Positions 27,106 to 64,000 of a stretch of DNA of 64,000 bases are shown piece by piece. Under the pieces are notes generated by a model, which saw only the letters and a list, made by a program, of their open reading frames with translations, had not been told where the DNA came from and ran no database searches. Each line of letters opens with the position of its first letter. The first letter of the stretch is position 1. The translations under genes and the position numbers were made by a program. The stretch spans positions 62,001 through 126,000 of the forward strand of contig NZ_JAAOTJ010000001.1 in assembly GCF_011297335.1 (NCBI RefSeq). Reading direction: 5' to 3'. The DNA comes from Catellatospora methionotrophica (GTDB taxonomy: Bacteria > Actinomycetota > Actinomycetes > Mycobacteriales > Micromonosporaceae).

Positions 27106-27108
27106 GGC

Positions 27109-47836: not shown

Positions 47837-47882
47837 GATTGTTAATCTCTTGCCGGTCGTCGTCCGGTGAGGAGGGTTCGTG

Positions 47883-49349: not shown

Positions 49350-50189
49350 ATGACCGGGAAGCTGCGCGGCCTGCACTCGTACTGGCACGTGCCCGGCGAG
49401 CGCCCGCTGCCGTACCGGCGGCTGGCGCTGCCGACGTGGCTGCTGGGCGTGCTGTCGTGGCAGCGCCACGCCGGGCCGATCGACCTGCTGGCCGACCAGC
49501 CGACAGCCGACTGGCTGGACGCGCTGGGCCTGCTCGACGGCTACGACCGGGTCGAGGTGTTCGACGCCACCGAGTTCGACGGCCGCTACCGCCGGGCGGA
49601 GTGCTTCGCGCTGCCGAAGCTGCTGGGCATGGCGCGCCATCCCGGTTCGGTGCTGGTCGACACGGACGCCTTTCTGCTCGGCGAGCTGCGCCTGGAGGGG
49701 ACGGGCAGCCACTTCGCGCACCTGGAACGCGGTGACGCGCCGTTCTACGCCCGGCTGCACGAGGTCGCGAACCCGGCCGGGGTGAGCCTGCCGCCGTCGC
49801 TGCCGTACGTGGGCAACACGGCGCTGTTCCGGGCCGCCGACGCGGACCTGGCGCGGCGTATCAGCGCGGCGGGGCTGGCGTTCCTCGACGGCAACCCGGG
49901 CACGCCCGGCCGCGACGCCGCGCTGCACATGACGGTCGCGGAGCAGGTCCTGGCCACGCACCTGACGGCCGAGGCCGGGCACGAGGTCGTCAACGTGTTC
50001 GGCGCGCTGTGGTCGCCGCACGACCGGCACTGGGAGGTCGGCCCGCCCGCCTTCGGGCACCTGTGGCATCTGAAGCGCTACCACCAGCCCGGCGGCCTCG
50101 CCGCGGCGTACGCGCGGGTCAGCCGCATCCTGCGCGACGAGTACGGCGTCGGCGAGGCGCGCCTGCGGGAGCTGGTCGCGGACCTGTGA
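49350..50189 (+). CDS. Glycosyltransferase-like protein (DUF6734-type, DxD motif)
   Basis: 279 residues. A GT-A-like core is suggested by FALPKLLGMARHPGSVLVDT and DTDAFLLGEL (DxD), then SHFAHLERGDAPFYA, SLPYVGNTALFRAADADLAR and FGHLWHLKRYHQ with a late His. It resembles proteins annotated DUF6734 and GT32/capsular-type transferases, but I cannot assign a family firmly. It starts 12 bp after the PhoX-like gene yet belongs functionally with the downstream cluster, 72 bp before the first ligase. Confidence 0.65.
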   Translation: MTGKLRGLHSYWHVPGERPLPYRRLALPTWLLGVLSWQRHAGPIDLLADQPTADWLDALGLLDGYDRVEVFDATEFDGRYRRAECFALPKLLGMARHPGSVLVDTDAFLLGELRLEGTGSHFAHLERGDAPFYARLHEVANPAGVSLPPSLPYVGNTALFRAADADLARRISAAGLAFLDGNPGTPGRDAALHMTVAEQVLATHLTAEAGHEVVNVFGALWSPHDRHWEVGPPAFGHLWHLKRYHQPGGLAAAYARVSRILRDEYGVGEARLRELVADL

Positions 50190-50261
50190 CCGGCCGCGGC
50201 GGCGACCTGCCGTCGCGCACGACTCAGGGGCCTGGTGCCCTGGAAGGTGAGGTGGCGGCAG

Positions 50262-51671
50262 ATGGCCGACATCGTGCAGGCGGTGCTGGCGCACCGGTCG
50301 GACCGGCGTCCCGCCATCGTCGGTGACGACCGCTCGACGTCGTACGCCGAGCTGGTGGAGCTGATCCGGCGGCTGTCGGGGGGTCTGCGGCGGCACTTCC
50401 CGCAGGGGCAGGACGTGTGCCTGGTCGTGTCCCACCCGGGCCTGGAGGAGTCGCTGGCGCTGACCCTGGCGGGATGGTCGCTCGGGCTGCGGGTGGCGGT
50501 GCTGCCGCCGTATCTGAAGGCCAGGGAGCTGGACCACGTGCTGGCCGAGTGCAGCCCGGTGGTGACCGTGTCGGACGTGACGCCGGACGCGCCGGGGTCG
50601 GTGTCGTTCGCGACGCTGCTGGACGGCCCGGCCGCCGAGCCGGGCACGGCGGCGGCGCACGCCTGGCTGCAGACGTTCACCAGCGGCACGACGGGGCGCT
50701 CCAAGTGCGTCGACCGGCAGGTGGGCCGCCTCAGCGACGACATCGAACAGCTGGCCCTGGCGATCGGGCTCAGCCCCGATGACCGGGTGACGGCGATGAC
50801 GACGGCGCTGTCGACGACCTCCGTGCTGCCCGCGCTGTATGCCGGTGCGACGGTTGCCACCGTCGCGCTGCAGTCGGGTCGCCAGTTCTGGCAGGCCATC
50901 GACGACCAGGAGATCACGGTCGTGTCGGGCACCCCCTACGCGTACGAGTTCGCGGTACGCAAGGCGCCCGAGGCCGAGCGGCTCAAGCGGGTGCGGATGG
51001 CGCTGACGACCTCGGCGCGGCTGCGGCCGTCGACGGCCCGGCAGTTCATGCGCGACACGGGCATCGCCGTACGCAACATCATGTGCAGCAGCGAGTCGGG
51101 CCACGTGGCCTACAACGACAGCGACGACGCGGACCTGCTCGCGACGTCGGTGGGGCGGCCGTTGCCGGGGGTCGACGTGCAGATCCGCGACGCGGACGGG
51201 CGGGTGCTGCCCGCGGGCGAGGCGGGCCGGATCTGCGTGCGCAGCCCGTACACGGCGACCCGCTACCGCAACCGGCCCGACGCGACGGCCGAGACGTTCC
51301 AGGGCGACTGGGTGGTCAGCACCGACGTCGGCTTCCTCGATCCGCGCGGCTTCCTGCACCTGACCGGCCGGGACGACCACAAGATCCATTTCGGGGCGGC
51401 GAAGCTCGACCCGCAGGAGCTGGAGGACGTGCTGCTGCGCCACCCGGCGGTCCGCGACGCCGTGGTGTCGGGCGAGGCCCACGACCGGCTCGGCCAGATC
51501 CCGGTCGCGCGGGTCGTCGCCGACGGGCCGGCCACCGCCGCGGAGCTGCTGGCGTACTGCCGGGAACAGCTCAGTGCCACGAAGGTGCCGCAGCGGGTCG
51601 AGTTCGTCGACAGCATCGCCAAGGACTTCAAAGGCCAGCCGGTACGGCCCCGGGCCGTCCGCTTCGACTGA
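50262..51671 (+). CDS. AMP-dependent acyl/aryl ligase with altered A10 motif
   Basis: 469 residues, ANL superfamily. P-loop-like A3 motif TFTSGTTGRSKCV, A5 MCSSESGHVAYN, A7 STDVGFLD and A8 LTGRDDHKIHFGAAKLDPQE are present. At A10, where the catalytic Lys normally follows TG, this protein has AKDFKGQPVRP, so Gln occupies the Lys position (Lys two residues earlier). Adenylation may be weak or lost, or the Lys at the shifted position may substitute. It is the first ligase of the cluster; an ACP gene follows 28 bp downstream. ATG 50262 is preferred; GTG 50235 is upstream in frame. Confidence 0.85.
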   Translation: MADIVQAVLAHRSDRRPAIVGDDRSTSYAELVELIRRLSGGLRRHFPQGQDVCLVVSHPGLEESLALTLAGWSLGLRVAVLPPYLKARELDHVLAECSPVVTVSDVTPDAPGSVSFATLLDGPAAEPGTAAAHAWLQTFTSGTTGRSKCVDRQVGRLSDDIEQLALAIGLSPDDRVTAMTTALSTTSVLPALYAGATVATVALQSGRQFWQAIDDQEITVVSGTPYAYEFAVRKAPEAERLKRVRMALTTSARLRPSTARQFMRDTGIAVRNIMCSSESGHVAYNDSDDADLLATSVGRPLPGVDVQIRDADGRVLPAGEAGRICVRSPYTATRYRNRPDATAETFQGDWVVSTDVGFLDPRGFLHLTGRDDHKIHFGAAKLDPQELEDVLLRHPAVRDAVVSGEAHDRLGQIPVARVVADGPATAAELLAYCREQLSATKVPQRVEFVDSIAKDFKGQPVRPRAVRFD

Positions 51672-51699
51672 CGTGCCGAACCAGACAGGGAGCCACCAC

Positions 51700-51969
51700 A
51701 TGAGCACACCCATCACGGGCGAGCAGGCGATCCGGGACCGGATCCGCGCGGTCGTCGAACGGATCCTCGGCCACCCCCTCGAACCCGGCGCCGACGAGCT
51801 GACCGACCTGGACTCGCTGCAGGTGCTGGAGCTGATGGTCTCGCTGGAGGAGGAGTTCGACATCGACTCCGACCGCATCATCGAGACCCAGACCGACTGG
51901 TGGACGTCCCTGGACGGCCTGGTCGCCTCCGTGGGCAGGCTCAGCGACCCGGCGACGGAGCAGGCGTAG
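51700..51969 (+). CDS. Acyl carrier protein
   Basis: 89 residues, acidic. The phosphopantetheine-attachment motif is LTDLDSLQVLELMVSLEEEF, with Ser in DSLQ. The third helix region DIDSDRIIETQTDWWTSLDG completes the fold. It should be the covalent tether for the product intermediates. It lies between the two ligase genes, so one or both probably load it. ATG 51700 follows AGGGAG. Confidence 0.92.
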   Translation: MSTPITGEQAIRDRIRAVVERILGHPLEPGADELTDLDSLQVLELMVSLEEEFDIDSDRIIETQTDWWTSLDGLVASVGRLSDPATEQA

Positions 51970-51973
51970 CGCC

Positions 51974-53383
51974 ATGGCCACCCCGACCCTGCTCGACCTC
52001 GCGCGCGCCAGCACCGGCACCGTGGTCGTCGACGGCGCCCGGCTCGCCGCCGCCGACCTGGTCGCCGCCGCCCGCCCGGCCGCCGCGGCGCTGCACGAGC
52101 GCGGGGTGCGACCCGGCGACGGCGTGCTGCTGGTCGACGACGGCGGCGGCGCGGACCTGCTGGCCGCGATGCTCGGCGTCTGGTGGGTCGGGGGCCGGGC
52201 GGCGGTGCTGCCGGCCGGGGCGCCGGCCGTGCACCGGGCCGCGGTGCTGCGCCAGACAGGGGCGGTGCTGACCGTGTCCGCCGACGCCGGGCCGGGGCAG
52301 GCCGCCTACGCCGATCTGCTCGCGCACCCGGGCCGAGCCGTGGCGCAGGTGTGCGACCCGCAGGACGCCGCGCTGGACGTCTTCTCCTCCGGCACCACCG
52401 GGCAGGCCAAGTGCGTCAGCTTCAGCCACGGGGCGCTGTGGCGCAACGTGCAGGCGTACGCCGACCGGCTCGGCCTGTCCGGCCGGGACGTGCTCTACTC
52501 CCCGCTGCCGCTGTCGCTGGCCGGGGTGCTGGGCATGGTGCTGCTGCCGGGCCTGCTGGCCGGGGCGAGCGTGCACCTGGGCCGCCTGGGCGGCGCGCAG
52601 GCCGCGTGGGCGGGGCGGCAGCTGGACGCCGCCGAGCCGACGCTGCTCTACGGCGTGCCGTACACCTTCGAGATCCTCGCCCGGCAGCGCGCCCCGCGCC
52701 GCACCGCGGCTCTGCGCTGGGCCGTGTGCAGCTCCGCGCCGCTGCCCGCCGCGACGTTCGACCGGGTGCACGCCCACCTGGGCGTGCCGCCCCGCAGCTC
52801 GTACTGCCTCGTCGAGGCGGGCACGGTCACCGTCAACACCTCCGCCGACCTCGACGAGCTGCGCCACACCGTCGGCGGCGTGCTGGACGGGGTCGAGCTG
52901 ACGCTCGAACCGGCGGCCGACGGTGCCGGCCGGATCGTCATCGGGGGGACCAGCTGCGGCTCCGGCTACCGCCACGACGGCGAGCTGCGGCCGTTTCCCG
53001 GCGGCGCGGTGCGCACCAACGACCTGGGCCGCCTGGCAGGCGGGCAGCTCGTCGTCACCGGCCGCGTCGACGAGGTGATCCAGGTCGCGGGCCAGTCCGT
53101 CGACCTCGCGCACCTGTCGCGGGTGCTGGCCGACTGCCCCGGCCTGGGCGACCACGCCGTGGTCGTCGACCAGCACGAGCAGCTCGGCACCGTGCCGGTG
53201 CTGCTCGTCGAGACCGGCTCGACGACCGCGTCGGCGGCGGAGCTGCTGGCCTTCTGCCGGGCGCGGCTGCGCGCCGTCGAGGTGCCCCGGCAGGTCCGCT
53301 TCGTCGACACCATCGCCCGCACCGCCACCGGCAAGGTGCCGCTGGCCGGCGCGGGACCCCAGCGAGAGGGAGCAGGCAGCTGA
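51974..53383 (+). CDS. AMP-dependent acyl ligase (second, canonical motifs)
   Basis: 469 residues, ANL superfamily. A3 is FSSGTTGQAKCVSFSHGAL, A5 SYCLVEAGTV, A7 RTNDLGRL, A8 VVTGRVDEVIQVAGQSVDLA and A10 IARTATGKVPL with the catalytic Lys. So this one should be an active carboxylate-AMP ligase, likely the loader of the ACP encoded 4 bp upstream. It shares the length and fold of the first ligase but is diverged from it. The stop overlaps a CTG start of the next gene (CTGA). Confidence 0.88.
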   Translation: MATPTLLDLARASTGTVVVDGARLAAADLVAAARPAAAALHERGVRPGDGVLLVDDGGGADLLAAMLGVWWVGGRAAVLPAGAPAVHRAAVLRQTGAVLTVSADAGPGQAAYADLLAHPGRAVAQVCDPQDAALDVFSSGTTGQAKCVSFSHGALWRNVQAYADRLGLSGRDVLYSPLPLSLAGVLGMVLLPGLLAGASVHLGRLGGAQAAWAGRQLDAAEPTLLYGVPYTFEILARQRAPRRTAALRWAVCSSAPLPAATFDRVHAHLGVPPRSSYCLVEAGTVTVNTSADLDELRHTVGGVLDGVELTLEPAADGAGRIVIGGTSCGSGYRHDGELRPFPGGAVRTNDLGRLAGGQLVVTGRVDEVIQVAGQSVDLAHLSRVLADCPGLGDHAVVVDQHEQLGTVPVLLVETGSTTASAAELLAFCRARLRAVEVPRQVRFVDTIARTATGKVPLAGAGPQREGAGS

Positions 53384-54648
53384 GCACCCACACCCCCACC
53401 GCACCGGTCGCGCATCCGTGGGATGCCGGCCCCCGCTTCCACACCAGCCTGCGCAGCCCGCTGGCCACCGACGAGTGGGCCTGGCGGGTGCTGCCGCCGG
53501 CGCACCCGGCGCTGCTGGCCCGCCCCAGCGTGCTGCGCCGCAGCGACCCCGGTGACGCCTTCGCGGTCATCGCGCGCCGCTACGGCGAGCCGACCGGCTA
53601 CTGCGTGCTGGGCGGCAACGTCGCCGCGGTGAGCAGCTGGACCGGGCTGAGCTTCGCCGACCAGTACCAGGCGGTCACCGCCGGTGCGGGCGTGTTCCCG
53701 TGCGGCGGCATGTACTACCTGTCGCTGACCGGCCCGCACGCCGCCGATGTGCTGAACCTGCTCAGCCCGCGCCGCTTCGACCGGCTGGAGGTCGGCCAGG
53801 CCACCTTCGCGATCTTCACGACACCGGAGGGCACCGTCGACACCGAGGGCGTGGTCCTGCGAGTGGGCCCGGACGCGTTCCAGGTCTCGATCGGCGGCGA
53901 GACCAACCCCCCGACCTGGCTGTACGACGCCCTGGAGCGCCACCCCGGCACCGTCGCCCAGGAGGCCGACCTCAGCTCGTTCAACATCAAGGGGCCCCGC
54001 CGGATGGAGGCGATGGCGCGGCTGCTGTCCGAGACGCACGCCGCGCGGCTGGCCACGCTCGGCACGTTTCGCGGCATGCCGGTGCGCACCCGCTGGGGCG
54101 CCGACGCGTGGGTCGTGCGCACCGTGATCGGCGTCGAGCTGTGGGCCAGCGCCGAGGTGACGCACGAGGCGTGGCAGGCGATGACCGCCGAGCCGGCCGT
54201 GTTCACCCCGTGCGGCTGGGACCTGCTGGCCACGTACCGGCTGGAATGCCCCGACTTCGCGTTCTACCTGTGCCCGCTGGACATCCACCGGGGCACCTAC
54301 CTGTTCGACGCGGGGCTGGGCCACGTGGTGTCGCCGGAGCGGACCGGTGAGTACGTCGGGCGGCAGGCGCTGAGCGACCCGGCCCGCTGGGGCGGGCGGC
54401 TGTGGATCGGGGGCCTGCGCGCCGCCGACCCGGACGCCGGACGCCGCCGCATCGGCGAGCCGCTGCCGGCGCTGCCCACGGGCGGACCCGCCGGCTACGT
54501 CACGTCGGCGGGGCACTCGCCCCGGGCCGGACGTGAGCTGTGCTTCGCGCACCTGGACGTCGCGGTCCGGCCCGGTGACACGGTCGGGTTCGCCGACGGC
54601 ACCACCTGGCAGGTCGTCCCACTGCCGATCCAGCCCCCGGCGCCGTGA
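53380..54648 (+). CDS. GcvT-like aminomethyltransferase/folate-dependent protein
   Basis: 422 residues. GcvT features are YQAVTAGAGVFPCGGMYYLS, LTGPHAADVLNLLSPRRFDR, LEVGQATFAIFTTPEGTVDT and DVVLRVGPDAFQVSIGGETN, with a C-terminal barrel (RPGDTVGFADGTTWQV). GcvT homologues bind tetrahydrofolate and take C1 units from amines or sulfur compounds. The frame is open from before 53380, but the first canonical start is far inside the domain; CTG 53380, overlapping the ligase stop and 7 bp after GGGAG, is the best start. Its role in the pathway is unknown. Confidence 0.82.
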   Translation: MSTHTPTAPVAHPWDAGPRFHTSLRSPLATDEWAWRVLPPAHPALLARPSVLRRSDPGDAFAVIARRYGEPTGYCVLGGNVAAVSSWTGLSFADQYQAVTAGAGVFPCGGMYYLSLTGPHAADVLNLLSPRRFDRLEVGQATFAIFTTPEGTVDTEGVVLRVGPDAFQVSIGGETNPPTWLYDALERHPGTVAQEADLSSFNIKGPRRMEAMARLLSETHAARLATLGTFRGMPVRTRWGADAWVVRTVIGVELWASAEVTHEAWQAMTAEPAVFTPCGWDLLATYRLECPDFAFYLCPLDIHRGTYLFDAGLGHVVSPERTGEYVGRQALSDPARWGGRLWIGGLRAADPDAGRRRIGEPLPALPTGGPAGYVTSAGHSPRAGRELCFAHLDVAVRPGDTVGFADGTTWQVVPLPIQPPAP

Positions 54649-54697
54649 CGGCCCGGCCACGCGGCCACGCGCCGCACCCGTACGAGAAGGAGGCGTC

Positions 54698-55405
54698 ATG
54701 GCGGTGAACTTCGTACTGATGCTGACCGAGCGGGACGTCACCATCCCCGACGCGGTCGAGGTGTACCGCGGCCTGGAGGTCGACGGCCTGGCACACGTCG
54801 CGTTCAAGGACGTCGGCGTCGAGCCCAGCGCGGCCCGGAAGCTGACCGACGCCGCGCACGCCGACGGCCGCCAGGTGCTGCTGGAGCTGGCCGACCTGAG
54901 CGACCACGGCCAGGAACAGGGCCTGCGGCTCGCGCTGGACCTGGGTGTGGACCAGGTGGTGGCCCGCTGGCGGCCCGACTTCGCCGCGCGGCTGGCCGAC
55001 CCGGACGCCCCGCGGTACTGGCCGTTCGTGGGCTCGCTGTCGGGCAGCCCGCTGGCCCTGTCCAGCACCCCGGAGGAGCTGGCGGCGATGGCCGGGCAGC
55101 TCAGCGACGCCGGGGTCGGGGGCATGGTGCTGATGCCGTACCGCCAGCACGCCCACGACGCCGCCGCGCTGCTGGCCGGCACCGCGCGGGCGGCCTCGGT
55201 GCCGGTGCTGGTCGCCGGTGGGGTCAAGGACCCGTCGCAGGTCGCCGACATCGCCCGTGCGGGCGCGTGGGGTTTCACGATGGGCGGCGCCGCGCTGGCG
55301 GACCGCCACGACGACCCGTCCTCGGTCAGCCGACGGGTCGCCGACCTGCTGCAGCTGTGCCGACAGCTCGGACCCGAGCCCGGACCGACCGAGGAGAACG
55401 TGTGA
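54698..55405 (+). CDS. TIM-barrel protein of unknown function
   Basis: 235 residues. The pattern LVEVDGLAHVAFKDVGV-like strand, VLLELADLSDHG, VVARWRPDF, GVGGMVLMPYRQH and VLVAGGVKDPSQVADIARAG then WGFTMGGAAL is that of a HisA/TrpC/ThiE-like phosphate-binding barrel. The GG motifs at the C-terminus are the expected phosphate grip. I cannot name the reaction. AAGGAGG sits 5 bp before ATG 54698. It is 50 bp after the GcvT-like gene and overlaps the PLP enzyme gene by one base. Confidence 0.72.
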   Translation: MAVNFVLMLTERDVTIPDAVEVYRGLEVDGLAHVAFKDVGVEPSAARKLTDAAHADGRQVLLELADLSDHGQEQGLRLALDLGVDQVVARWRPDFAARLADPDAPRYWPFVGSLSGSPLALSSTPEELAAMAGQLSDAGVGGMVLMPYRQHAHDAAALLAGTARAASVPVLVAGGVKDPSQVADIARAGAWGFTMGGAALADRHDDPSSVSRRVADLLQLCRQLGPEPGPTEENV

Positions 55406-56565
55406 TGAGACTGGTTTGTGCAGACTGCTCCGCCGACGCAGGTGACGGTCCGGTCGACGGCCCCACCGAGTGGCTGTGCGTACGCTGCGGCGGCACGCTC
55501 ACCCCGTCCGTGGAGCGGTTCGACGACTGGAGCCGGGCCGTGACGGACGTGGCGGGCGTCGGGCGGTACGCCGCGCTGCTGCCCGTGGCGCAGCCGGACC
55601 ACCTGGTCAGCAGTGCCGAGGCGCTGGTCCCGCTGGACAGTCCGCGGCTGGCCGCGGCGCTGGGCGTGGCGTCGGTGCGGGTGCTGCCGCAGACCCGCAA
55701 CACCACCGGCACGTTCAAGGACAACGAGGGCGTGCTGCTGGCGGCCAAGTGCCGCGAGTGGGGCCTGTCGGCGGTGTGCATGCACAGCTCCGGCAACACC
55801 GCGCGGGCGTACCAGTTCTACATGGACCGGGCCGGGGTCACCTGCACCGGGTTCGTGCCGCAGGCCTCGGCGTACAAGTGCCCGACGGCGCTGCTGGGCA
55901 CGTCGCCGATCATCGCGGTGCCGGGCAACATGGCCGACGCGGCCGAGGTCGCGGCGGCGTACAGCAAGGACACCGGCGCGCTGCGGCTGACGCCCAGCCA
56001 GTGGAAGATCGAGGGCAAGGCACCGCTGGGGCTGGCCCTGGCCGAGCACTGCCCCGGGGCGTCGGTCATCGCGGTCACCATCGCCAGCGGCTACGGCCCG
56101 CTGGGCATCGAGCGCGGCATCCAGCGGGCCCGCGCGGCCGGGCTGCGCTCGGTCGGGCAGCACACGTTCCGGCTGTTCCAGGCCAGGGACGCGGCGCTGC
56201 TCGGGGCGGCCGTACGCGACGGGCGCGCCGAGATCGACCTCGCCGAGATGGTCGCGCCCGAGCACGCGTTCGAGCCGACGCTGCAGTCCACCAACCCGAA
56301 CCGGACCCTGCCGCTGATGCGCCGGCTGCTGGAGCAGACGGGGTCACGGATCGACCCGGTCCCCGACGTGCGCGTGGAGGCCGAGGCGCACCTGCTGGCT
56401 CAGGTGTGCGACGAGCTGGGCGCGCCGCTGGAGTACGCGACCGAGAAGTCGGCGTTCATCTGCTGGGCCGGGCTGCGCCAGGCCGCCGAGCAGGGCGAGC
56501 TGTCGCAGCACGACGACGTCGTCATGATCCTCAGTGGTTCGGCGCCGCAGGACCGGCTGCCGTGA
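55405..56565 (+). CDS. Threonine synthase-like PLP-dependent enzyme
   Basis: 386 residues. An N-terminal zinc-ribbon-like CADCS...CVRCGG, then NTTGTFKDNEGVLLAAK with the PLP Lys (FKD), SSGNTARAYQFYMDRAGVTC (substrate/PLP phosphate loop), GYGPLGIERGI and SGSAP near the C-terminus. It is fold type II, close to threonine synthase and cysteate synthase. Because a full threonine pathway copy is unlikely in a cluster, a replacement reaction on a phosphorylated amino acid is inferred. Its last 35 bp overlap the convergent dehydrogenase gene. Confidence 0.88.
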   Translation: MRLVCADCSADAGDGPVDGPTEWLCVRCGGTLTPSVERFDDWSRAVTDVAGVGRYAALLPVAQPDHLVSSAEALVPLDSPRLAAALGVASVRVLPQTRNTTGTFKDNEGVLLAAKCREWGLSAVCMHSSGNTARAYQFYMDRAGVTCTGFVPQASAYKCPTALLGTSPIIAVPGNMADAAEVAAAYSKDTGALRLTPSQWKIEGKAPLGLALAEHCPGASVIAVTIASGYGPLGIERGIQRARAAGLRSVGQHTFRLFQARDAALLGAAVRDGRAEIDLAEMVAPEHAFEPTLQSTNPNRTLPLMRRLLEQTGSRIDPVPDVRVEAEAHLLAQVCDELGAPLEYATEKSAFICWAGLRQAAEQGELSQHDDVVMILSGSAPQDRLP

Positions 56566-57754
56566 CCGCGCCTGGCGCACGCGCGGGCGGGTCTGCCGCC
56601 GGGGCCGTGCCGAAGCGTTCGGCGAACCGGGCCAGGTACGCCGCATCGGGTGCGCGGCCCGCGCAGCGGATCGGCGGAGCGGTGACGGCCAGGCGGTCGA
56701 GCACGGCCAGGTTCGCGACCACAGTGGGCACGGGCACGCCCATGCCCAACGTCGCGGGCAGCTCCGGCTCGGCCGCCATGAGCAGCGGCGACAGGATGCA
56801 GCTGGTGATGGTGCGGTCATGGTGAACGCCGGCGTTCCAGCCCAGCTCGTGCAGCAGCGGCGGGGCGTAGGAGCGCACCGGGAACGGCTCGGCCAGGGCC
56901 AGCAGCCCGCCGTTGGCCAGCAGCAGGTCGGCGGCGGCGTCGACGCGGGCGTAGGCCCGGCCGACGTCGAAGCAGTGCGGCACGGAGTCGTCCACGATGA
57001 TGCAGCCGGGGGCGAGGCGGTCGACGTCGAGCGCGTTGGGTGTGCTGGTGCAGCCGATGACCAGCCCCGCCCGGTGGCCGTGGCCGCCGGGGGCGGTGGC
57101 GTCGGCGACCGCCACGTCCAGGCCCGGCCGCTCCTGCCGCAGGCGGTCGGCGAACTGCTCGACGGCGGCGCGCTTGCCGGGCAGGTCGGACAGGACGAGA
57201 CGGCGGGGCGCGCCCAGTGTGGCCAGCGTGGCGGTGACGGTGGCCTGGCCGATCGAGCCCAGTCCCAGCACGGTGACGGCCTCGTGCGCCCAGTGGCGGG
57301 CGCTGACGTCGAGCACGTGCTCGACGGTCCGGACGATGGCGGCGACGGTGGTGGCGTGGCCGGTGGTGAGGGTTCCGTCGGGGGCGTCGAGCAGGCGGCC
57401 GTAGCCGGTGGCCGACGCCAGCAGTCCGGCCAGCGACACGTGACCGGCTCCCATGGCGCGGGCCTGGGCGATGGCGGCCTGCGCGTAGTGCACGGTCGTG
57501 GCGTCGTCGCGCACCATGTCGCGGTAGGTCAGCGGCAGCGTGAAGATCGCGGTGCAGCCCAGCGGGGTGTCCATCAGCGCGGTGACGAACGGCGCGTCGC
57601 CGAGCCGGGCGCGCAGTGCGGCCGGGGTCAGGCCGAGACGGCGGGCGACGTTGGTGCCGAAGTACGACAGCGTGGCGGCGCTCACCTGCTCGCCTTCGCC
57701 GGCCAGGACGGGCGGGGTGAGGGTGCGGAGGTAGCTGCCGGGAATGGGGTTCAC
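56531..57754 (-). CDS. Acyl-ACP reductase-like NAD(P)-dependent dehydrogenase
   Basis: 407 residues from GTG 57754 (GGAG 8 bp upstream). The N-terminal part has MGAGHVSLAGLLASATGYGR and TTGHATTVAAIVRTVEHVL, then a Rossmann domain VTVLGLGSIGQATVTATLAT and LVIGCTSTPNALDVDRLAPG with IIVDDSVPHCFDVG. The order and motifs resemble cyanobacterial acyl-ACP reductase (aldehyde-forming), more than ornithine cyclodeaminase, to which such proteins are also assigned. Reduction of the ACP-bound intermediate is therefore plausible. It is divergent from the first oxidase and convergent with the PLP enzyme (35-bp overlap). Confidence 0.65.
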   Translation of the reverse strand: MNPIPGSYLRTLTPPVLAGEGEQVSAATLSYFGTNVARRLGLTPAALRARLGDAPFVTALMDTPLGCTAIFTLPLTYRDMVRDDATTVHYAQAAIAQARAMGAGHVSLAGLLASATGYGRLLDAPDGTLTTGHATTVAAIVRTVEHVLDVSARHWAHEAVTVLGLGSIGQATVTATLATLGAPRRLVLSDLPGKRAAVEQFADRLRQERPGLDVAVADATAPGGHGHRAGLVIGCTSTPNALDVDRLAPGCIIVDDSVPHCFDVGRAYARVDAAADLLLANGGLLALAEPFPVRSYAPPLLHELGWNAGVHHDRTITSCILSPLLMAAEPELPATLGMGVPVPTVVANLAVLDRLAVTAPPIRCAGRAPDAAYLARFAERFGTAPAADPPARAPGAVTAAGPAAPNH

Positions 57755-57807
57755 GTGCCCGTCTCCTTCGTGGACCGGCGGCACCTGGCCGCCTTCGCAC
57801 CACATTC

Positions 57808-57836
57808 TATCGACATCAGACAATATTTATCGACAT
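57808..57836. repeat. Two TATCGACAT direct repeats in a divergent promoter
   Basis: TATCGACAT at 57808-57816 and 57828-57836 are 20 bp apart, two helical turns, within an AT-rich 110-bp divergent region. The second copy is part of ATCGACATGGGCCGAT (57829-57844). TAGAAT (57804-57809, minus strand) may be a -10. They look like binding sites for a dimeric repressor controlling both directions of the cluster. Confidence 0.55.
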
Positions 57837-57864
57837 GGGCCGATAACCGGGGTGGTGGCGCGTG

Positions 57865-58956
57865 ATGACCGCCGTCGACGTCGCCGTGATCGGGCTGGGC
57901 GTGTACGGCAGCGCCGTCGCGGACGCGCTGGCCCGCTGCGGGCGGCGGGTGCTGGCCGTGGAGCAGTCGGGCGCGGACGAGGTCGGCGGCGCGTCGCAGG
58001 GTCCGGTCCGGATGCTGCGCACCCACGATCCGGATCGGCCCGAGCTGGACGGGCTGGCCCGCCGCGCGGCCCGGCAGTGGCGGGCGCTGTCCGCTGCGCA
58101 GCCGTCGCCACTGCTGCGTGCCGTCGCGGGGGTGTTCGTAAGGCCACCGGCCGCCCGCCCGCTGCTAGCCGCGTCCGGCCGGCCTTCGCTCGGGAGTCGT
58201 GACCGGTCGTTGCCCGCCGGGCATCCGCTGCGGCTGCCCCTGGCGGTGCCCGCAGGCTGGGAGGTCGCGGGCAGTCGCGGCTGCGGCCTGCTGGACGCCC
58301 GCGCCGCCGTGCTGGCCCTGCGCGAGCGGGCTCGGGCGCACGGCGCGACGCTGCTGTTCGGCCGCCGAGCCGAACTGGCCACCCGTGCACCCGAGGAACC
58401 GGTGCGCATCAGCGTCGGCGACCGGCGGGTGACCGCCGCGCGCCTGCTGATCTGCGTCGGGGCGTGGAGCACCGGGCTGCCCGCCTGGGCGCGGGTGCCC
58501 GGCCTGCGGGTCGAACCGACCTACATGCAGGTGGCGACGTTCGCCGAGGCGGCGCTCGGCGGGTCGGCGTACTACGTGTTCGGGCACGGGGACGAACGCT
58601 TCTGCGCCATCCCGCTGACCTCCGGCGGGCTGCAGTTCGGCCACTTCGCCCAGCCGGCGGCGGCATCGAGCCCGCCGGATCGGGCCGAGGCGAGCTGGCG
58701 GCGGGACGCGGCGGCGCTGGCGCGGTTCGTGCCCGACCTCGGGCCCGCGCTGACCCGGAGCACGGTGGCGGGCTGCTACAGCACTCCACCCGGCGGGGCG
58801 TTCACGCTGCGCTGGGCGTCGCCGTACGCGGCCACGCTGGTGGCCTGCTCGGGGGTGGGGTTCAAGTACGCCCCCGCGGTGGCCGAGCTGGTCGTCGCGG
58901 CGCTGGACCAGCGCCTGGCGCGGCGGCCCGGCCTGCGGGTGGAGGCTGCCCGGTGA
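57865..58956 (+). CDS. FAD-dependent amine/amino-acid oxidase-like enzyme (DAO family)
   Basis: 363 residues from ATG 57865 (or GTG 57862). The dinucleotide-binding motif VAVIGLGVYGSAVADALARC is at the N-terminus, followed by VRMLRTHDPDRPEL, LICVGAWSTGLPAWARVPGL and a C-terminal CSGVGFKYAPAVAELV. This is the sarcosine oxidase/SoxA type; the covalent-FAD Cys position near GFKYAP is not preserved clearly. It oxidises an amine in the cytoplasm, substrate unknown. It is divergent from the reductase-like gene. Confidence 0.85.
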   Translation: MTAVDVAVIGLGVYGSAVADALARCGRRVLAVEQSGADEVGGASQGPVRMLRTHDPDRPELDGLARRAARQWRALSAAQPSPLLRAVAGVFVRPPAARPLLAASGRPSLGSRDRSLPAGHPLRLPLAVPAGWEVAGSRGCGLLDARAAVLALRERARAHGATLLFGRRAELATRAPEEPVRISVGDRRVTAARLLICVGAWSTGLPAWARVPGLRVEPTYMQVATFAEAALGGSAYYVFGHGDERFCAIPLTSGGLQFGHFAQPAAASSPPDRAEASWRRDAAALARFVPDLGPALTRSTVAGCYSTPPGGAFTLRWASPYAATLVACSGVGFKYAPAVAELVVAALDQRLARRPGLRVEAAR

Positions 58957-59003
58957 CCGGCAGGGCGATGTTCCACACCGGACAGGCTGTCCGGATGGCG
59001 GCA

Positions 59004-59032
59004 TTGTTAGGCAACCGTCCTGATCGTAGGCT
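59004..59032 (+). promoter_or_regulatory. Promoter for the ABC exporter operon, leaderless start
   Basis: TTGTTA (59004-59009), a 17-bp spacer and TAGGCT (59027-59032) end 6 bp before GTG 59039, and no Shine-Dalgarno is present. Both hexamers and spacing fit a sigma-70-type promoter giving a leaderless message. Confidence 0.6.
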
Positions 59033-59038
59033 CGGGCG

Positions 59039-60028
59039 GTGCCGATGACATCGCCAGGTATCGACGTACGCGACCTGTCCATGGTCTACCGGGTGCCGGT
59101 GCGCGAGGCAGGGGTGCGCGCGGCCATACGCAGCCTCTGGCAGCGCCGTACCCGCGAGGTCACCGCCCTGGACGGGATCGGCTTCCAGGTGGGCGCGGGC
59201 GAGGCGGTCGGCCTGATCGGGCCCAACGGCGCGGGCAAGACCAGCCTCATGAAGATCATGGCGGGGATCCTGCGGCCCACCGGCGGCAGCGTCCGGGTCC
59301 TCGGCCGGGAGCCGTTCGACCGCCACCCCGACCACCTGCGCCGCATCGCCCTGGTCCGGGGCAGCCAGCCACTGGGCGGCGCACCCGAGCTGACCGTCAT
59401 GGACAGTCTGCAATACCAGGGCCTGGTGTACGACGTGGCCGCCGGGCAGCTGCGGCGCAACCTCGCCGAACTGGTGGACCTGCTCGACCTCGGCGGCCTG
59501 CTGGAGCGGCAGGTGCGGGCGCTGTCGCTCGGCGAGCGGATGCGGGCCGGGCTCGCCATGGCCCTGGTGTACCGCCCCGCCGTGCTGTTCCTCGACGAGC
59601 CGACCATCGGGCTGGACGTGTCCGCGGCGGTGCAGACCCGCCGGTTCCTGCGCCGCTACGTGGCCCAGACCGGTGCCACCATGATCCTGACCAGCCACTA
59701 CATGGCCGACGTGGCCGAGCTGTGCCCCCGCGTCGTGCTCATCAACCACGGCGCGCAGGTCTACGACGGCTCCCTGCCCGAACTCACCGCGCACGTGGGG
59801 CGCGACAGGCTCGTCGAGGTCGTCCTCGCCGACGACGCCGAGCCGCCCGCCGGCGCGCACGCCCTCGGCGACGGCCGTTACCAGCTCAGCGTCGCCCGCG
59901 ACCAGGTGCCCGACACCGTCGGCCGGTTGCTGGCCGACACCCGGGTGCTGGACCTCGGCATCAAGGAAGCCCCGCTGGACGTGCTGATGGACGAGATCTA
60001 CCGCCGGACCGGGACGCGGGCCCGATGA
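59039..60028 (+). CDS. ABC transporter ATP-binding protein (ABC-2 exporter)
   Basis: 329 residues. Walker A GLIGPNGAGKTSLMKIMAG, signature LSLGERMRAGLAMAL (LSLGE rather than LSGGQ), Walker B AVLFLDEPTIGLD and H-loop LTSHYMADVAEL. The C-terminal extension resembles NatA/DRA-type drug exporters. It overlaps the first permease gene by 4 bases. It should energise export of the cluster product. Start GTG 59039, or ATG 59045 two codons inside. Confidence 0.93.
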   Translation: MPMTSPGIDVRDLSMVYRVPVREAGVRAAIRSLWQRRTREVTALDGIGFQVGAGEAVGLIGPNGAGKTSLMKIMAGILRPTGGSVRVLGREPFDRHPDHLRRIALVRGSQPLGGAPELTVMDSLQYQGLVYDVAAGQLRRNLAELVDLLDLGGLLERQVRALSLGERMRAGLAMALVYRPAVLFLDEPTIGLDVSAAVQTRRFLRRYVAQTGATMILTSHYMADVAELCPRVVLINHGAQVYDGSLPELTAHVGRDRLVEVVLADDAEPPAGAHALGDGRYQLSVARDQVPDTVGRLLADTRVLDLGIKEAPLDVLMDEIYRRTGTRAR

Positions 60029-60786
60029 CCCGGTTGCCGCGGCTGCTCTGGCTCAACGTCGAACGCCAGTTCCTGACCTGGTCCGGGGCGTGGTGGTTCG
60101 TGTTCGCGCTGGCCGCGGGGCAGCTCGTGCCGCCCCTGGTCGGCCTAGCCGTGTGGCACGCCGTCCTGCCCGACAGCAGCCGGGTCACCAGCTACTACCT
60201 GGCGGTGCTGTTCGTCGCCGCCACCACCGCCTCGTACGAGAACCACACCTTCGCCCAGCGCATCTACAAGGGCACCATCGCCGACGACCTGCTGCGCCCG
60301 CAGCCGGCGGTGCTCGGGCCGCTGGGCGAGAACCTCGCCATCCGGGCCTGGATCGGCCTCACCGCCGTCCCGGTCGTCGTGCTGGTCGCGGCCACGACGA
60401 CGGTGTCGTTCCCGCCCGGGGCGCTGGCCGCGGCCCTGCCCGCCTGGCTCGGCGCGGGGCTGCTGCGGTTCCTGTTCACCTGGTGCCTGGCACTGACCGC
60501 GTTCTGGACCGAGCGGGTGCACGCGATCACCGCCTTCGCCACGACCGTGCTGTACCTGCTGGGCGGCACCGCCGTACCCGTCGACCTGCTCCCGCGGCCG
60601 TGGGCGGAGCTGGCCCCCTACCTGCCGTTCTACGCCATGCTCGGCCTGCCCGCCGACATCGCCACGGCCGGGGCGGGCCCGGTCCGGGGGCTGCTCGTGC
60701 AGGCGGGGTGGCTGCTGGCCACGGGTGCGCTGGCGGTCGTGCTGTGGCGGCGCGGCCTGCGCCGCCACACCGCCGTGGGAGGGTGA
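60025..60786 (+). CDS. ABC-2 family transporter permease (first)
   Basis: 253 residues with about six hydrophobic segments, e.g. FALAAGQLVPPLVGLAVWHA, YYLAVLFVAATTASYE, LTAVPVVVLVAATTTVSF and LLVQAGWLLATGALAVVLWR. The loop QRIYKGTIADDLLRPQPAVL (interaction with the ATPase) is typical of ABC-2/DUF990 permeases. The ATG overlaps the ATPase stop (ATGA). Confidence 0.9.
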   Translation: MTRLPRLLWLNVERQFLTWSGAWWFVFALAAGQLVPPLVGLAVWHAVLPDSSRVTSYYLAVLFVAATTASYENHTFAQRIYKGTIADDLLRPQPAVLGPLGENLAIRAWIGLTAVPVVVLVAATTTVSFPPGALAAALPAWLGAGLLRFLFTWCLALTAFWTERVHAITAFATTVLYLLGGTAVPVDLLPRPWAELAPYLPFYAMLGLPADIATAGAGPVRGLLVQAGWLLATGALAVVLWRRGLRRHTAVGG

Positions 60787-60787
60787 C

Positions 60788-61570
60788 ATGCGGCTGCTGC
60801 GCCTGCTGGGCGCGACCTTCTCGCTGGCTGTGCGCCGCACCCTGACGCACCGGGTGAACCTGCTGTTCGACCTGGGCCAGTCGGTCGCCGGAGTGGTCGC
60901 GGCGCTGGCCGCGACGCTGGCCGTCTACCACCGGACCGACACCCTCGCCGGTTGGACCCGGCCCCAGGCGCTGGTCCTGATCGGCATGTTCGCGACGGTG
61001 TCGGGCGTACGCGCCGCGCTGATCGACCCCAGCCTGTCGCGGATGGTCGGCACGATCCGCGACGGCACCATGGACGAGGCGCTGCTGCGCCCCGCACCGA
61101 GCTGGTTCACCGTCAGCTGCCGCGACCACGCCCCGCTGGCACTGGGCCAGACGCTGCTGGGCCTGGGCGTGATCGCCGCCGGGGCGGCGCGGCTGCCCGA
61201 GCCGCCCGGACCGCTCAACATCGCCGCGGCCGCGGTGCTGGCCTGCTGCGCGATCGCCCTGAGCTGGGCGCTGTCACTGATGGTGGCGTGCCTGGGCTTC
61301 TGGGCCGGGCGGCTGGAACTGGCTCCGATGACCGCCTCGCTGTGGGACGTCGGCCGCTACCCCGCCGGGATCTACCAGCGTCCACTGCGGACCGCGCTGA
61401 CGTACGTGATCCCGCTGGCGGGCATGGTCACCCTGCCCGCCGCGGCGCTGACCCGGCCCGGCTGGGCCGGCGCGCTCGCGGCCGGGGCGGCGTCGACGGC
61501 GGCCCTGGTCGCCCTGGCGCTGCTGCTGTTCCGGCGCGGCCTGCGGCGCTACACCGGAGCGACGTCGTGA
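60788..61570 (+). CDS. ABC-2 family transporter permease (second)
   Basis: 260 residues. Hydrophobic segments include VAGVVAALAATLAVYH, LVLIGMFATVSGVRAAL, VLACCAIALSWALSLMVACL and AALVALALLLFRRGLRRY. The loop TIRDGTMDEALLRPAPSWFT matches the coupling loop of the first permease. The two permeases are paralogous and form the heterodimeric membrane part with the ATPase. ATG 60788 lies 1 bp after the previous stop. Confidence 0.9.
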   Translation: MRLLRLLGATFSLAVRRTLTHRVNLLFDLGQSVAGVVAALAATLAVYHRTDTLAGWTRPQALVLIGMFATVSGVRAALIDPSLSRMVGTIRDGTMDEALLRPAPSWFTVSCRDHAPLALGQTLLGLGVIAAGAARLPEPPGPLNIAAAAVLACCAIALSWALSLMVACLGFWAGRLELAPMTASLWDVGRYPAGIYQRPLRTALTYVIPLAGMVTLPAAALTRPGWAGALAAGAASTAALVALALLLFRRGLRRYTGATS

Positions 61571-62037
61571 GCCCCGGGCACCGGCTGCCGGTGACGGTGC
61601 GCACCCCGCTGCGGATCGGCGCGGCGACGGTCTGGGTCGACCCCGAGGCGGGCACCGTGCGCTGCGAGGCGATGAACCGCGTCCGGACCCTGCTGGCCGG
61701 GCTCGACCCGGCGAGCTACCTGGTCGCCGGGCCCCGGGAGGCGATCGTGGCGACGGCCGCGTCAGGGCGGGCGCTCAGCTTCGCCGTCACCGGCGGCGCG
61801 CCCGCCGCGCTGGGCGCGCGGCCGAAACCGGACTGGTGCGAGGCCGTCGAGCAGACCCTGCCCGCCCCGCAGGAGCAGGTGACCGGATGGCTGGAGGTCG
61901 GCGTACGCGACCACGCCGGGACATGGCACTGCAGCATCCCGCAGGGCAACCTGCCGCGCCTGCAGGCGCTGCTGGCCCGGCGCGGCCACCCGCTGGTCTA
62001 CATCACCCGCATCCAGGTGGACGCCGATGACCGCTGA
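61567..62037 (+). CDS. Hypothetical protein, cluster-associated
   Basis: 156 residues from GTG 61567, overlapping the permease stop (GTGA). It reads LPVTVRTPLRIGAATVWVDP, VRCEAMNRVRTLLAGLDPAS and ITRIQVDADD at the end; a mixed alpha/beta soluble protein without a recognised family or membrane segment. Its tight coupling between exporter and oxidase genes suggests a pathway-specific helper. Confidence 0.75.
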   Translation: MSPGHRLPVTVRTPLRIGAATVWVDPEAGTVRCEAMNRVRTLLAGLDPASYLVAGPREAIVATAASGRALSFAVTGGAPAALGARPKPDWCEAVEQTLPAPQEQVTGWLEVGVRDHAGTWHCSIPQGNLPRLQALLARRGHPLVYITRIQVDADDR

Positions 62038-63226
62038 ACCGCTGCCCGAGGCCCGACTGGACTGGCCCGGCGTCGTCGTGGTCGGCGGCGGCGTCACCGG
62101 GCTGCTGACCGCGCTGGAACTGGACCGGCGGGGCATCGCCGCGCTGGTCCTCGACCAGGCCGCCGCCTGCTGCGCACAGAGCGGCCAGGCACACGGATGG
62201 CTGCACCGCGGCGGCATCTTCCCCGACACCGGCACCGCCGATGTGGAACTGCTCGACCAGGGCGCGCGAGCCTGGGCGCGGCTGCTCGACCAGCACCCCG
62301 ACCCGGCGGCGGTCGACTGCCGGGTGGGCGGCCTGCACCCGCGCACCCTCGACGCGGTCACCGCGGTGTGGCGGCACCTGCGGCTGCCGTACCAGCACGC
62401 CACGCCCGGCGCCGCCTGCGCGTGGGCCCTGCACGCCCCCGAACGCGCCGTCGTGCCCCTGCGGGTGCTGCGTCCGCTCCTGGCGGGCACACGGGTGGCC
62501 CTGCGCCGGGCCGAGGCGACAGGCATCACCGCGTACGGGAACACGGCCCGCTCCCTGACCGTCCGCGCCGGGCAGCGGCTGTTCCGGGTGAACGCCGACG
62601 CGTTCGTCCTGGCCGCCGGTGCCGGGATCGCCGCACTGCTGCCCCGCGCCGCGCCCGCCGACCGGCTCGCCCACCGCCTGTCGTTCATGCTGGTGGCCCG
62701 GTCGGCGGCCGCGCCGGCACACGCGCTGGCCATCCCGGAGCAGGAGGCCCTGGGCCTGTTCACCGTGCCGCGCACCGGCGGCGGGCACCGCTACAGCCTG
62801 CTGTCGAACTTCATCAGCTACGCGCCCACCGCCGACCTGGGCCACAGCCGCGCCAACTGGCTGTCCGGCATCGCGCCCACGGTCCTTCGGTTCCTGCCAG
62901 GGCTGTGGGAGTCGCCAGACACCCGCTGGGGGGTGTACGCGGCGGTCAAGGCGGAGCCGACCCGGCCCGTCGCGCTCGGCGCGCCCACCATGGCCCTACT
63001 GCCCACCGGTCACGCGAACGTGGCCGCGGGCGTGCCCGGCAAACTCGTGCTCGCCCCGCTACTGGCCCAGGCCCTGGCCGAGGCGGTGAGCGGACACGCC
63101 CGCCCGGCCCCCGCCACACCGGCCGCCGCACCGGACGCGCTGCCCGACCTCCCGTGGGGACCCGAGGAGTGGGAGATCACCGCCCTGGTACGCCGGTCGA
63201 CCCTGTTCGCCGGGGAGGCCCCGTGA
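62027..63226 (+). CDS. FAD-dependent oxidoreductase (DAO family, second)
   Basis: 399 residues. The FAD motif is GVVVVGGGVTGLLTALELDR, then ALVLDQAAACCAQSGQAHGW, VLAAGAGIAALLPR and the C-terminal HANVAAGVPGKLVLAPLLAQ (GG-motif for FAD). It is only distantly related to the first DAO enzyme of the cluster. It should oxidise an amine or hydroxy acid. The ATG overlaps the previous gene by 11 bp, and its stop overlaps the next GTG. Confidence 0.85.
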   Translation: MTAEPLPEARLDWPGVVVVGGGVTGLLTALELDRRGIAALVLDQAAACCAQSGQAHGWLHRGGIFPDTGTADVELLDQGARAWARLLDQHPDPAAVDCRVGGLHPRTLDAVTAVWRHLRLPYQHATPGAACAWALHAPERAVVPLRVLRPLLAGTRVALRRAEATGITAYGNTARSLTVRAGQRLFRVNADAFVLAAGAGIAALLPRAAPADRLAHRLSFMLVARSAAAPAHALAIPEQEALGLFTVPRTGGGHRYSLLSNFISYAPTADLGHSRANWLSGIAPTVLRFLPGLWESPDTRWGVYAAVKAEPTRPVALGAPTMALLPTGHANVAAGVPGKLVLAPLLAQALAEAVSGHARPAPATPAAAPDALPDLPWGPEEWEITALVRRSTLFAGEAP

Positions 63227-64000
63227 GACTGGCGATCGTCGCCGACGCCTGCCTGCCGACCGCCGACGACTGGTCGCGCAACCCCCGCACGCTGGCCGAG
63301 GGCCTCACCGGGCTCGGCCACGAGGTGACGCTGCTGGCCACCGCGTCCGGCACGCCGACCGCCGCCGACCACACCGGACGGCACGCCCGAGCACTGCTGT
63401 CGCCCTGCGGCGCCGACACCGGTCAGGCGCTGACACTGCTGCGGCCGGGCTGCGACACGGTGCTGTCCCTCGGCACCGCAGCGCCGACCGCCGCCGCTGT
63501 GCTGGCCGCGACCCTCGGCATCCCCCTGGCCGTGTTCCTGCCGCCCCGGCTGTTCGACGCCGACCCGCCGCCCGCCGGCTACGGGCGGCTGCTGTGCCGG
63601 CACCTGCCCGCCGCGATGCTGATCACCGAGAGCCGCCGCCAGCTGGCCACGGCCCGGCACCACGGCGCCGACCCGCACCGCGTCTTCGTCGTGCCGCCCG
63701 GCATCGACGTCGGCCCGCCGCCCGCGCCCGGCGGCCGCGGCGACGACGGACGGCTGCGCCTGCTGGTCGACGCCACCGGCACCGCCGCCCAGGAGCAGCG
63801 ATTCCTCGCCGACGTGCTGGCCACCCTGGCGGCGGGACGGCACCGCATCCACACGACCGTGCTCGGCGACGGCACGACCGGCCACCTCTGGGACGGGCGA
63901 CCCGACACCGCCGTACTCACGCCATCCGACACCGCCGCGCTGGCGGGCCTGTACCACGACGCCGACGTGATCCTCGTGCCCGGCGGCGGCGACCGCACGG
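63223..64000 (+). CDS. Glycosyltransferase family 4-like protein (3' end outside window)
   Basis: The first 259 residues from GTG 63223 (overlaps the previous stop). GT-B features: MRLAIVADACLPTADDWSRN, LAEGLTGLGHEVTLLAT, then VFVVPPGIDVGPPP (the linker to the second Rossmann domain), LRLLVDATGTA and VLTPSDTAALAGLYHDADVI near the cut. It likely attaches a sugar to the cluster product. The catalytic ExxxxxxxE segment lies beyond the window edge. Confidence 0.8.
   Translation, partial: MRLAIVADACLPTADDWSRNPRTLAEGLTGLGHEVTLLATASGTPTAADHTGRHARALLSPCGADTGQALTLLRPGCDTVLSLGTAAPTAAAVLAATLGIPLAVFLPPRLFDADPPPAGYGRLLCRHLPAAMLITESRRQLATARHHGADPHRVFVVPPGIDVGPPPAPGGRGDDGRLRLLVDATGTAAQEQRFLADVLATLAAGRHRIHTTVLGDGTTGHLWDGRPDTAVLTPSDTAALAGLYHDADVILVPGGGDRT

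Follow-up and report, generated by a model that had tools for sequence, protein, structure and literature searches.

A probable specialised-metabolite gene cluster of Catellatospora methionotrophica with a stand-alone acyl carrier protein

Background

What can a set of carrier-protein enzymes make when it includes neither a ketosynthase nor a condensation domain? The question is raised by a stretch of 64,000 nucleotides from Catellatospora methionotrophica (hereafter the window; positions 62,001 to 126,000 of contig C1, NZ_JAAOTJ010000001.1, in a genome of 8.39 Mb and 56 contigs). From position 49350 onward, two ANL ligases flank a stand-alone acyl carrier protein (ACP) amid genes for a GcvT-fold protein, a TIM barrel, a pyridoxal phosphate (PLP) enzyme, a thioester reductase, two DAO flavoenzymes, an exporter and glycosyltransferases. 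We read the contig beyond the window, to window coordinate 90000, and assigned gene families by scanning the called genes against Pfam, NCBIfam and PDB sequences; a GC-frame script supplied the gene calls in related genomes and some of the calls beyond the window. The locus is a real and singular gene cluster, probably for a specialised metabolite, and among the genomes sampled only its own carries it. The explanation of the whole that we favour, and consider somewhat better than an even bet, is a pathway of acid loading, reduction, amination, glycosylation and export, perhaps with a second carrier unit.

In this pathway the ANL pair would activate an acid and attach it to the ACP, a reductase of the PigE/TamH type would convert the ACP thioester to an aldehyde, and a class IV aminotransferase encoded just outside the window might aminate that aldehyde or a derivative of it. 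Preparing or tailoring a small building block would fall to the two DAO enzymes, the GcvT-fold protein, the TIM barrel and the PLP enzyme; sugars would be attached by three or possibly four glycosyltransferases, and a three-gene ABC-2 exporter would serve product efflux. A further carrier unit, at 70.4-73.9 kb, might supply a reduced glyceryl C3 piece. Gene content and order, family matches, motif changes and the restriction to a single sampled genome are observed; loading, reduction, amination, glycosylation and export, as well as their order and the substrate, are what we infer from the sequences. A first-pass annotation of the window had already proposed activation, tethering, reduction, glycosylation and export of a small amino-acid-derived acid; each of these steps has a family or sequence match, but the amino-acid origin is weakened and the one-carbon (C1) transfer that was also proposed was not shown. 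The absence of ketosynthase and condensation domains held good: the Pfam scans reported none among the genes called from 49350 to 73925.

Proposed activation and tethering of an acid

Ligase 1 (50262-51671), the ACP (51700-51969) and ligase 2 (51974-53383) follow one another on the plus strand, and Pfam bears out their initial naming. PF00501 matches the ligases with 149.9 and 116.7 bits, respectively, and PF00550 matches the ACP with 25.3 bits (cut-off 20.8); a DSL motif is visible by eye in the latter. The ligases are 36% identical and both have KCV after the P-loop lysine. Ligase 1 has 59 matches in its own genome, itself included; apart from itself it matches ligase 2 best (1.2e-44, compared with 6e-26 for the following match), which suggests a duplication whose two copies have stayed on either side of a single ACP. 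Among plasmid records, ligase 1 has five matches (27-30% identity) and ligase 2 has none at 1e-20.

Do the two copies have the same function? We compared their residues with those of ANL domains from six of eight fetched loci in the same genome, leaving out the two without a cutting motif. The A10 lysine, a residue with a role in adenylating ANL enzymes, is found in all six and in ligase 2; the alignment places Gln there in ligase 1. The pair reads as one adenylating ligase plus one partner of altered function. The Asp of the FD stretch, which contacts the alpha-amino group in adenylation domains of nonribosomal peptide synthetases (NRPS), is found in five of the six domains and in neither cluster ligase, there being alignment gaps near this position. 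The ligases may therefore act on something other than a plain alpha-amino acid, and the missing Asp, together with the Gln of ligase 1, weakens the amino-acid origin first ascribed to the acid.

Proposed thioester reduction and possible amination

The stand-alone thioester (acyl-ACP) reductase that we class with PigE and TamH lies on the minus strand (56531-57823). It has 430 amino acids and, according to Pfam, lacks a transaminase domain. Its first description as an acyl-ACP-reductase-like dehydrogenase is backed by matches to the PigE model NF053554 (3e-11, 42 bits) and, over residues 42-406, to PDB entries 9e4x and 9e4s ('Amino acid adenylation domain protein', 7e-37), but the PigE score is far under the model cut-off of 850 and no Pfam family was matched. 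An AlphaFold model from the single sequence was poor (mean pLDDT 39).

Homologues at 1e-15 occur in 10 of 397 genomes of the order, the source genome included (in the larger genome searches four or seven first-look candidates were scored per genome, and absences are not absolute). Of the other nine matches, eight fall within open frames 3,706-4,025 amino acids long, and the ninth within a frame of 2,180 amino acids that has a stop inside the match. Three plasmid records contain relatives, and the contexts of two were opened: the Pantoea relative is a separate gene, that of Streptomyces sp. NBC_00470 is partial, and that of S. fungicidicus lies under an NRPS/polyketide synthase (PKS) annotation. 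The class IV aminotransferase that might act on the aldehyde is encoded at 64307-65263 (PF01063, 117 bits).

Putative enzymes for a building block

The gene at 55405-56565 (plus strand) was correctly recognised as encoding a threonine-synthase-like PLP enzyme (PALP, PF00291, 64.5 bits, cut-off 35; PDB 6cgq, 1.3e-14). Like threonine synthases, the protein has in alignment a PLP-lysine motif (TGTFKDN, compared with TGSFKD) and an SSGNTA motif, and N-terminal CxxC pairs can be seen by eye; unlike them, it scores 84.4 bits against an NCBIfam cut-off of 303 and has an altered glycine-rich region. Homologues are present in 41 plasmid records, with 24-28% identity among the 15 matches listed, and none was found among viral contigs.

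The adjacent TIM-barrel protein (54698-55405, plus strand), also noted at first reading, has only a weak match in the family libraries (NMO, under the cut-off) and homologues in 22 of 72,556 plasmid records at E 0.01 (25-35% identity). A PdxA-type dehydrogenase gene precedes the homologue in five of six opened records (Gemmobacter, Bradyrhizobium, Rhizobium, Gluconobacter and Roseateles), and in three of these five an annotated four-carbon acid sugar kinase lies upstream of the PdxA-type gene. The Staphylococcus homologue has neither kind of neighbor. The cluster protein has FKDxG, LE, YR and VAG motifs in common with six plasmid homologues; unlike this PdxA-adjacent family, however, the cluster gave no match to PdxA or the sugar kinase in Pfam scans. 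By analogy, the TIM barrel would handle a small oxo- or hydroxy-acid. A TrpA/TrpB-like pairing of the TIM barrel with the PLP enzyme was considered (one-base overlap; Trp_syntA, E 0.09) and set aside when no further support emerged.

Both DAO flavoenzymes of the first-pass annotation were confirmed. DAO1 (57862-58956, plus strand) is of the monomeric sarcosine oxidase type (PF01266, 88.3 bits; PDB 7exs, 3.7e-16), and DAO2 (62027-63226, plus strand; PF01266, 61.5 bits) has no homologue in the plasmid records at 1e-5. A logic of the nikkomycin NikD/NikE/NikA type was rejected: none of the 11 PDB sequences matching DAO1 is named NikD.

Predicted export, glycosylation and regulation

The three-gene ABC-2 exporter is encoded on the plus strand by an ATPase gene (59045-60028; PF00005; 173 bits with a drrA-like model, below its cut-off of 312) and two permease genes (60025-60786 and 60788-61570; ABC2_membrane_6, PF06182, 66.4 and 132.8 bits), as expected from the initial reading. 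A small protein with a GTG start follows (61567-62037, plus strand; no family matched).

Three glycosyltransferase-type genes lie in the operon to 68147: a GT4-type gene (63223-64299, plus strand, running past the window end at 64000; PF13692, 40.6 bits) and, from sequence scans, a GT1-type (66137-67297) and a GT8-type gene (67284-68147). Two glycosyltransferase-like genes had been claimed within the window. The GT4-type gene is one of them; the other, orphan gene A (49350-50189, plus strand, 279 amino acids), has no meaningful Pfam, NCBIfam or PDB match and owes its glycosyltransferase-like look to a DTD motif seen by eye. Elsewhere in the window, a row of three genes (26269-28982) looks by eye like two of GT8 and one of GT2 type. 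The operon also contains a gene for an APH-family kinase (65256-66140, 65.6 bits), a possible self-protection gene. Beyond it are a BTAD/SARP regulator gene (68173-68979, minus strand, from sequence scans) and, between this and 70387, a response-regulator gene.

A second carrier block

The block at 70387-73925 encodes a short-chain dehydrogenase/reductase (SDR) thioester reductase (70387-71499; TIGR01746, 261 bits, cut-off 213), FkbH (71577-73334; 266 bits, cut-off 147), an ACP-like protein directly after FkbH (DSL motif by eye; no Pfam match at 0.001) and, from sequence scans, a VOC protein ending at 73925. FkbH has a role in loading glyceryl units. In having an FkbH domain, an ACP-like protein adjoining it and a VOC protein, the block resembles known FkbH-ACP glyceryl units; it differs in that no PKS lies beside it and an SDR thioester reductase precedes FkbH. 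FkbH homologues at 1e-40 are found in three plasmid records, and in both of those opened an ACP and a VOC protein are close by; the VOC protein itself has no match in the plasmid records at 1e-12. The block probably belongs to the cluster.

Extent, borders and distribution

The cluster spans 49350 to at least 68147 and, with the second carrier block taken in, probably ends at 73925, giving a size of roughly 20-25 kb. That it runs on past 64000 had been foreseen, and the operon indeed extends to 68147. The genes form two tight co-directional runs (49350-56565 and 57862-68147). Reading frames had been described as nearly all overlapping, which is too strong: with the starts chosen, there is overlap at 8 of the 16 same-strand junctions from 49350 to 68147 and perhaps at a ninth, between ligase 2 and GcvT, depending on an uncertain start; the remaining seven are spaced by 1-88 bp, and the reductase gene is on the minus strand.

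Where does the cluster stop? On the right, nucleotide alignment to three congeners (G751, G752 and G754) starts at 74011, 85 bases after the second carrier block; in G751 and G752 it continues as far as roughly 89.7 kb, almost the end of the sequence examined, and the fetched piece of G754 ends after 1.2 kb. Sibling alignments were counted only at 250 bases or more, and at that length the fetched sibling sequence beyond this alignment has no match to window coordinates 1-74010. On the left, DNA at 45.0-47.7 kb matches G750, G755, G756 and G759 among the matches listed. The next gene (47880-49337) is, among the matches listed, in a different place in G755 and on other contigs in G750 and G759; its match in G756 is only 42%, and a 66% paralogue lies on contig C19 of the source genome. 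This gene is PhoX/DUF839-like by eye. Only the border on the right is clear, the left side being a mosaic.

Is the gene set found elsewhere? Gene A has no match at 1e-6, and the PLP enzyme none at 1e-20, in the 10 other genomes of the genus; nor does the PLP enzyme have one in 393 other genomes of the class at 1e-25. Close relatives of the GcvT-fold protein are encoded in three genomes, G083 and G914 (one genus) and G346 (Saccharopolyspora spinosa NRRL 18395). In the 32-48 kb around these genes, tblastn found no match to the ACP, TIM barrel, PLP enzyme or reductase; it did find DAO and ABC ATPase matches in G083 and G914, an aminotransferase in G346, and a weak ANL match (25%) about 15 kb from the GcvT-fold gene in G914. 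The open-access literature yielded no description of a cluster joining GcvT, threonine-synthase and carrier-protein genes, which does not prove that none has been described.

Several observations weigh against a single pathway of loading, reduction and amination. The samples searched yielded no second genome with the gene set, so that co-function rests on proximity; the lack of co-conservation, named at the outset as grounds for rejecting the cluster, was thus found in part. Lacking the A10 lysine, ligase 1 may be inactive or a half-reaction enzyme. The Cys in the PHCF stretch of the reductase is kept in 5 of 10 aligned relatives, which makes an acyl-enzyme step of the kind proposed for PigE uncertain. 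Unlike the class III aminotransferases of PigE and TamH, that of the cluster is class IV and unfused. Finally, the SARP gene is parted from the second carrier block by a gap of 0.8 kb (by gene calls) and the response-regulator gene, and FkbH-ACP-VOC recurs as a unit, which may be independent of the central operon.

Could the locus then be an island of two or three unrelated small operons, one converting acid to aldehyde, one for glycoside export and glycosyl transfer, and one an FkbH-ACP unit? This is the strongest of the alternatives, although we think it unlikely. It would fit the lack of co-conservation, the mosaic left side with its differently placed congener matches, and the other partners that the GcvT-fold gene has in G083, G914 and G346. 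Against it, the mostly overlapping run from 57862 to 68147 mixes DAO, exporter, glycosyltransferase and aminotransferase genes, and there is a single SARP gene.

A separate clade of GcvT-fold proteins

The protein encoded at 53380-54648 (plus strand) belongs to the GCV_T family (PF01571, 68.5 bits, cut-off 25.6), and so has its fold family in common with GcvT, sarcosine oxidase alpha and trimethylamine N-oxide (TMAO) demethylase. Its start is the CTG at 53380 or lies further upstream; the next in-frame GTG, at 53488, falls inside the stretch shared by its relatives. NCBIfam models for GcvT give 76.1 bits against a cut-off of 300 and 64.8 against 235.85. Five aligned members (the cluster protein, those of G083, G346 and G914, and a Salmonella plasmid protein) form a separate clade: the cluster protein is 42-44% identical to the three genomic relatives and 38-39% to the Salmonella protein (two records), compared with 26-31% for eight ordinary GcvT-like proteins. 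The D-D and GYTGE motifs line the active site of canonical GcvT. In the clade there is a VDxE motif (VDTE in the cluster protein) where the eight ordinary proteins carry DD one position on, and the GYTGE loop is missing, the cluster protein having a shortened IGVE stretch. A GcvT-like enzyme had been predicted from the start, and family membership stands; the C1 transfer attached to it was not shown, with a score of 76 against 300 and the canonical motifs missing.

The clade is small. Homologues at 1e-20 occur in 3 of the 397 order genomes. A profile matched 23 of 249 genomes of the family of G083 at 1e-30, with G083, G346 and G914 at 1e-194 or better and the other 20 at 1e-32 to 1e-30; we took the latter for ordinary GcvT, and the same range holds all four other matches in the class sample. 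The profile was built with the cluster protein, G346 and G083, so that G914 is the only independent close find. A contig search with the alignment, using strict patterns, recovered one relative from 62 pattern matches, that of S. spinosa. The Salmonella gene (L036:17857-19074) sits amid ordinary genes of an IncFIB plasmid and has no DNA match in E. coli genomes.

In G083 and G914 a gene homologous to DAO1 (33% and 36%) directly follows the GcvT-fold gene, and the operon continues with genes that we named by eye as aldo-keto reductase, carbamoyltransferase and methyltransferase. Staphylopine-like genes, most named by eye, are near the operon in G083. In S. spinosa a TauD-like gene comes after the GcvT-fold gene, with desaturase-like and methyltransferase-like genes around (most by eye), and a class IV aminotransferase 28% identical to that of the cluster is nearby.

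A putative link of the GcvT-fold protein to oxidative one-carbon removal is attractive. Taken as the function of the locus, it would mean oxidative demethylation or formaldehyde capture, a sarcosine-oxidase-type DAO oxidizing N-methyl or N-CH2 and its GcvT-fold partner moving the CH2 unit onto folate, on the models of dimethylglycine dehydrogenase and TMAO demethylase. TMAO demethylase is in fact the best NCBIfam match of the protein, and both the DAO1 homologues and the TauD-like gene are in keeping with such a role. That match, however, reaches 83 bits against a cut-off of 1100, the D-D and GYTGE-type motifs are altered, G083 and G914 are hardly independent as members of one genus, and no DAO match was found in the 48 kb stretch of G346. 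We regard this as improbable, a little more so than the island of small operons.

Less likely readings: two carriers, or starter loading

A bolder reading has two independent carriers. The acid of the duplicated ligases, one of them without the A10 lysine, and the glyceryl unit of FkbH would each go to a thioester reductase. A GcvT-fold clade with novel chemistry and the ThrC/TIM-barrel pair would then join and tailor the resulting two aldehydes, to give a new class of glycosylated small molecules made without PKS or NRPS condensation. We consider this decidedly doubtful. Least probable is a VinN/VinL/VinM-like loader of a beta- or aryl-amino-acid-like starter, in which one ligase loads an acid on the ACP, the other adds a protecting amino acid and the product passes to a separate assembly line elsewhere in the genome: two ligases do surround one small ACP and the genome is rich in long frames with AMP-binding domains (71 matches in all, some of them fragments of a single domain), but Vin starter loading uses a dedicated acyltransferase and an amidase, Pfam scans of the cluster found neither, and no PKS or NRPS module lies within it.

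Comparison with known systems

Carrier-protein pathways without condensation domains can escape detectors built on PKS and NRPS core domains. The present cluster moreover combines enzymes that fall below curated models: a GcvT-fold clade that has diverged, a ThrC-like enzyme for which the sample offers no close relative, and duplicated ligases of which one lacks the A10 lysine. If active, it would offer defined, testable chemistry; the product might be a glycoside of the antibiotic type, the operon itself containing an APH-type gene.

Returning to loading, reduction and amination as the preferred pathway, its closest working model by analogy is TamA/TamH of tambjamine YP1 together with PigE of prodigiosin biosynthesis. 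Published work describes TamA, an ANL-ACP protein, coupled to TamH, a reductase-transaminase, in the conversion of fatty acids to amines in vitro (PMC9594044), and supports thioester reduction by PigE (PMC8341465). Like TamA in that account, the cluster has, judged by sequence, an ANL enzyme and its own ACP for activating and tethering an acid (PMC9594044). Like TamH and PigE as that work presents them, it has by homology an acyl-ACP-reductase-type thioester reductase that would make an aldehyde, and a PLP aminotransferase that could act on it, a step that needs no ketosynthase or condensation domain (PMC9594044, PMC8341465). Unlike TamA/TamH, the cluster encodes its ANL, ACP, reductase and aminotransferase functions in separate genes, has two diverged ligases, and adds the GcvT-fold, TIM-barrel, ThrC-like, DAO, glycosyltransferase and exporter genes. 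Carrier pathways without ketosynthase or condensation domains are already known in kind, and this cluster is a variant of them.

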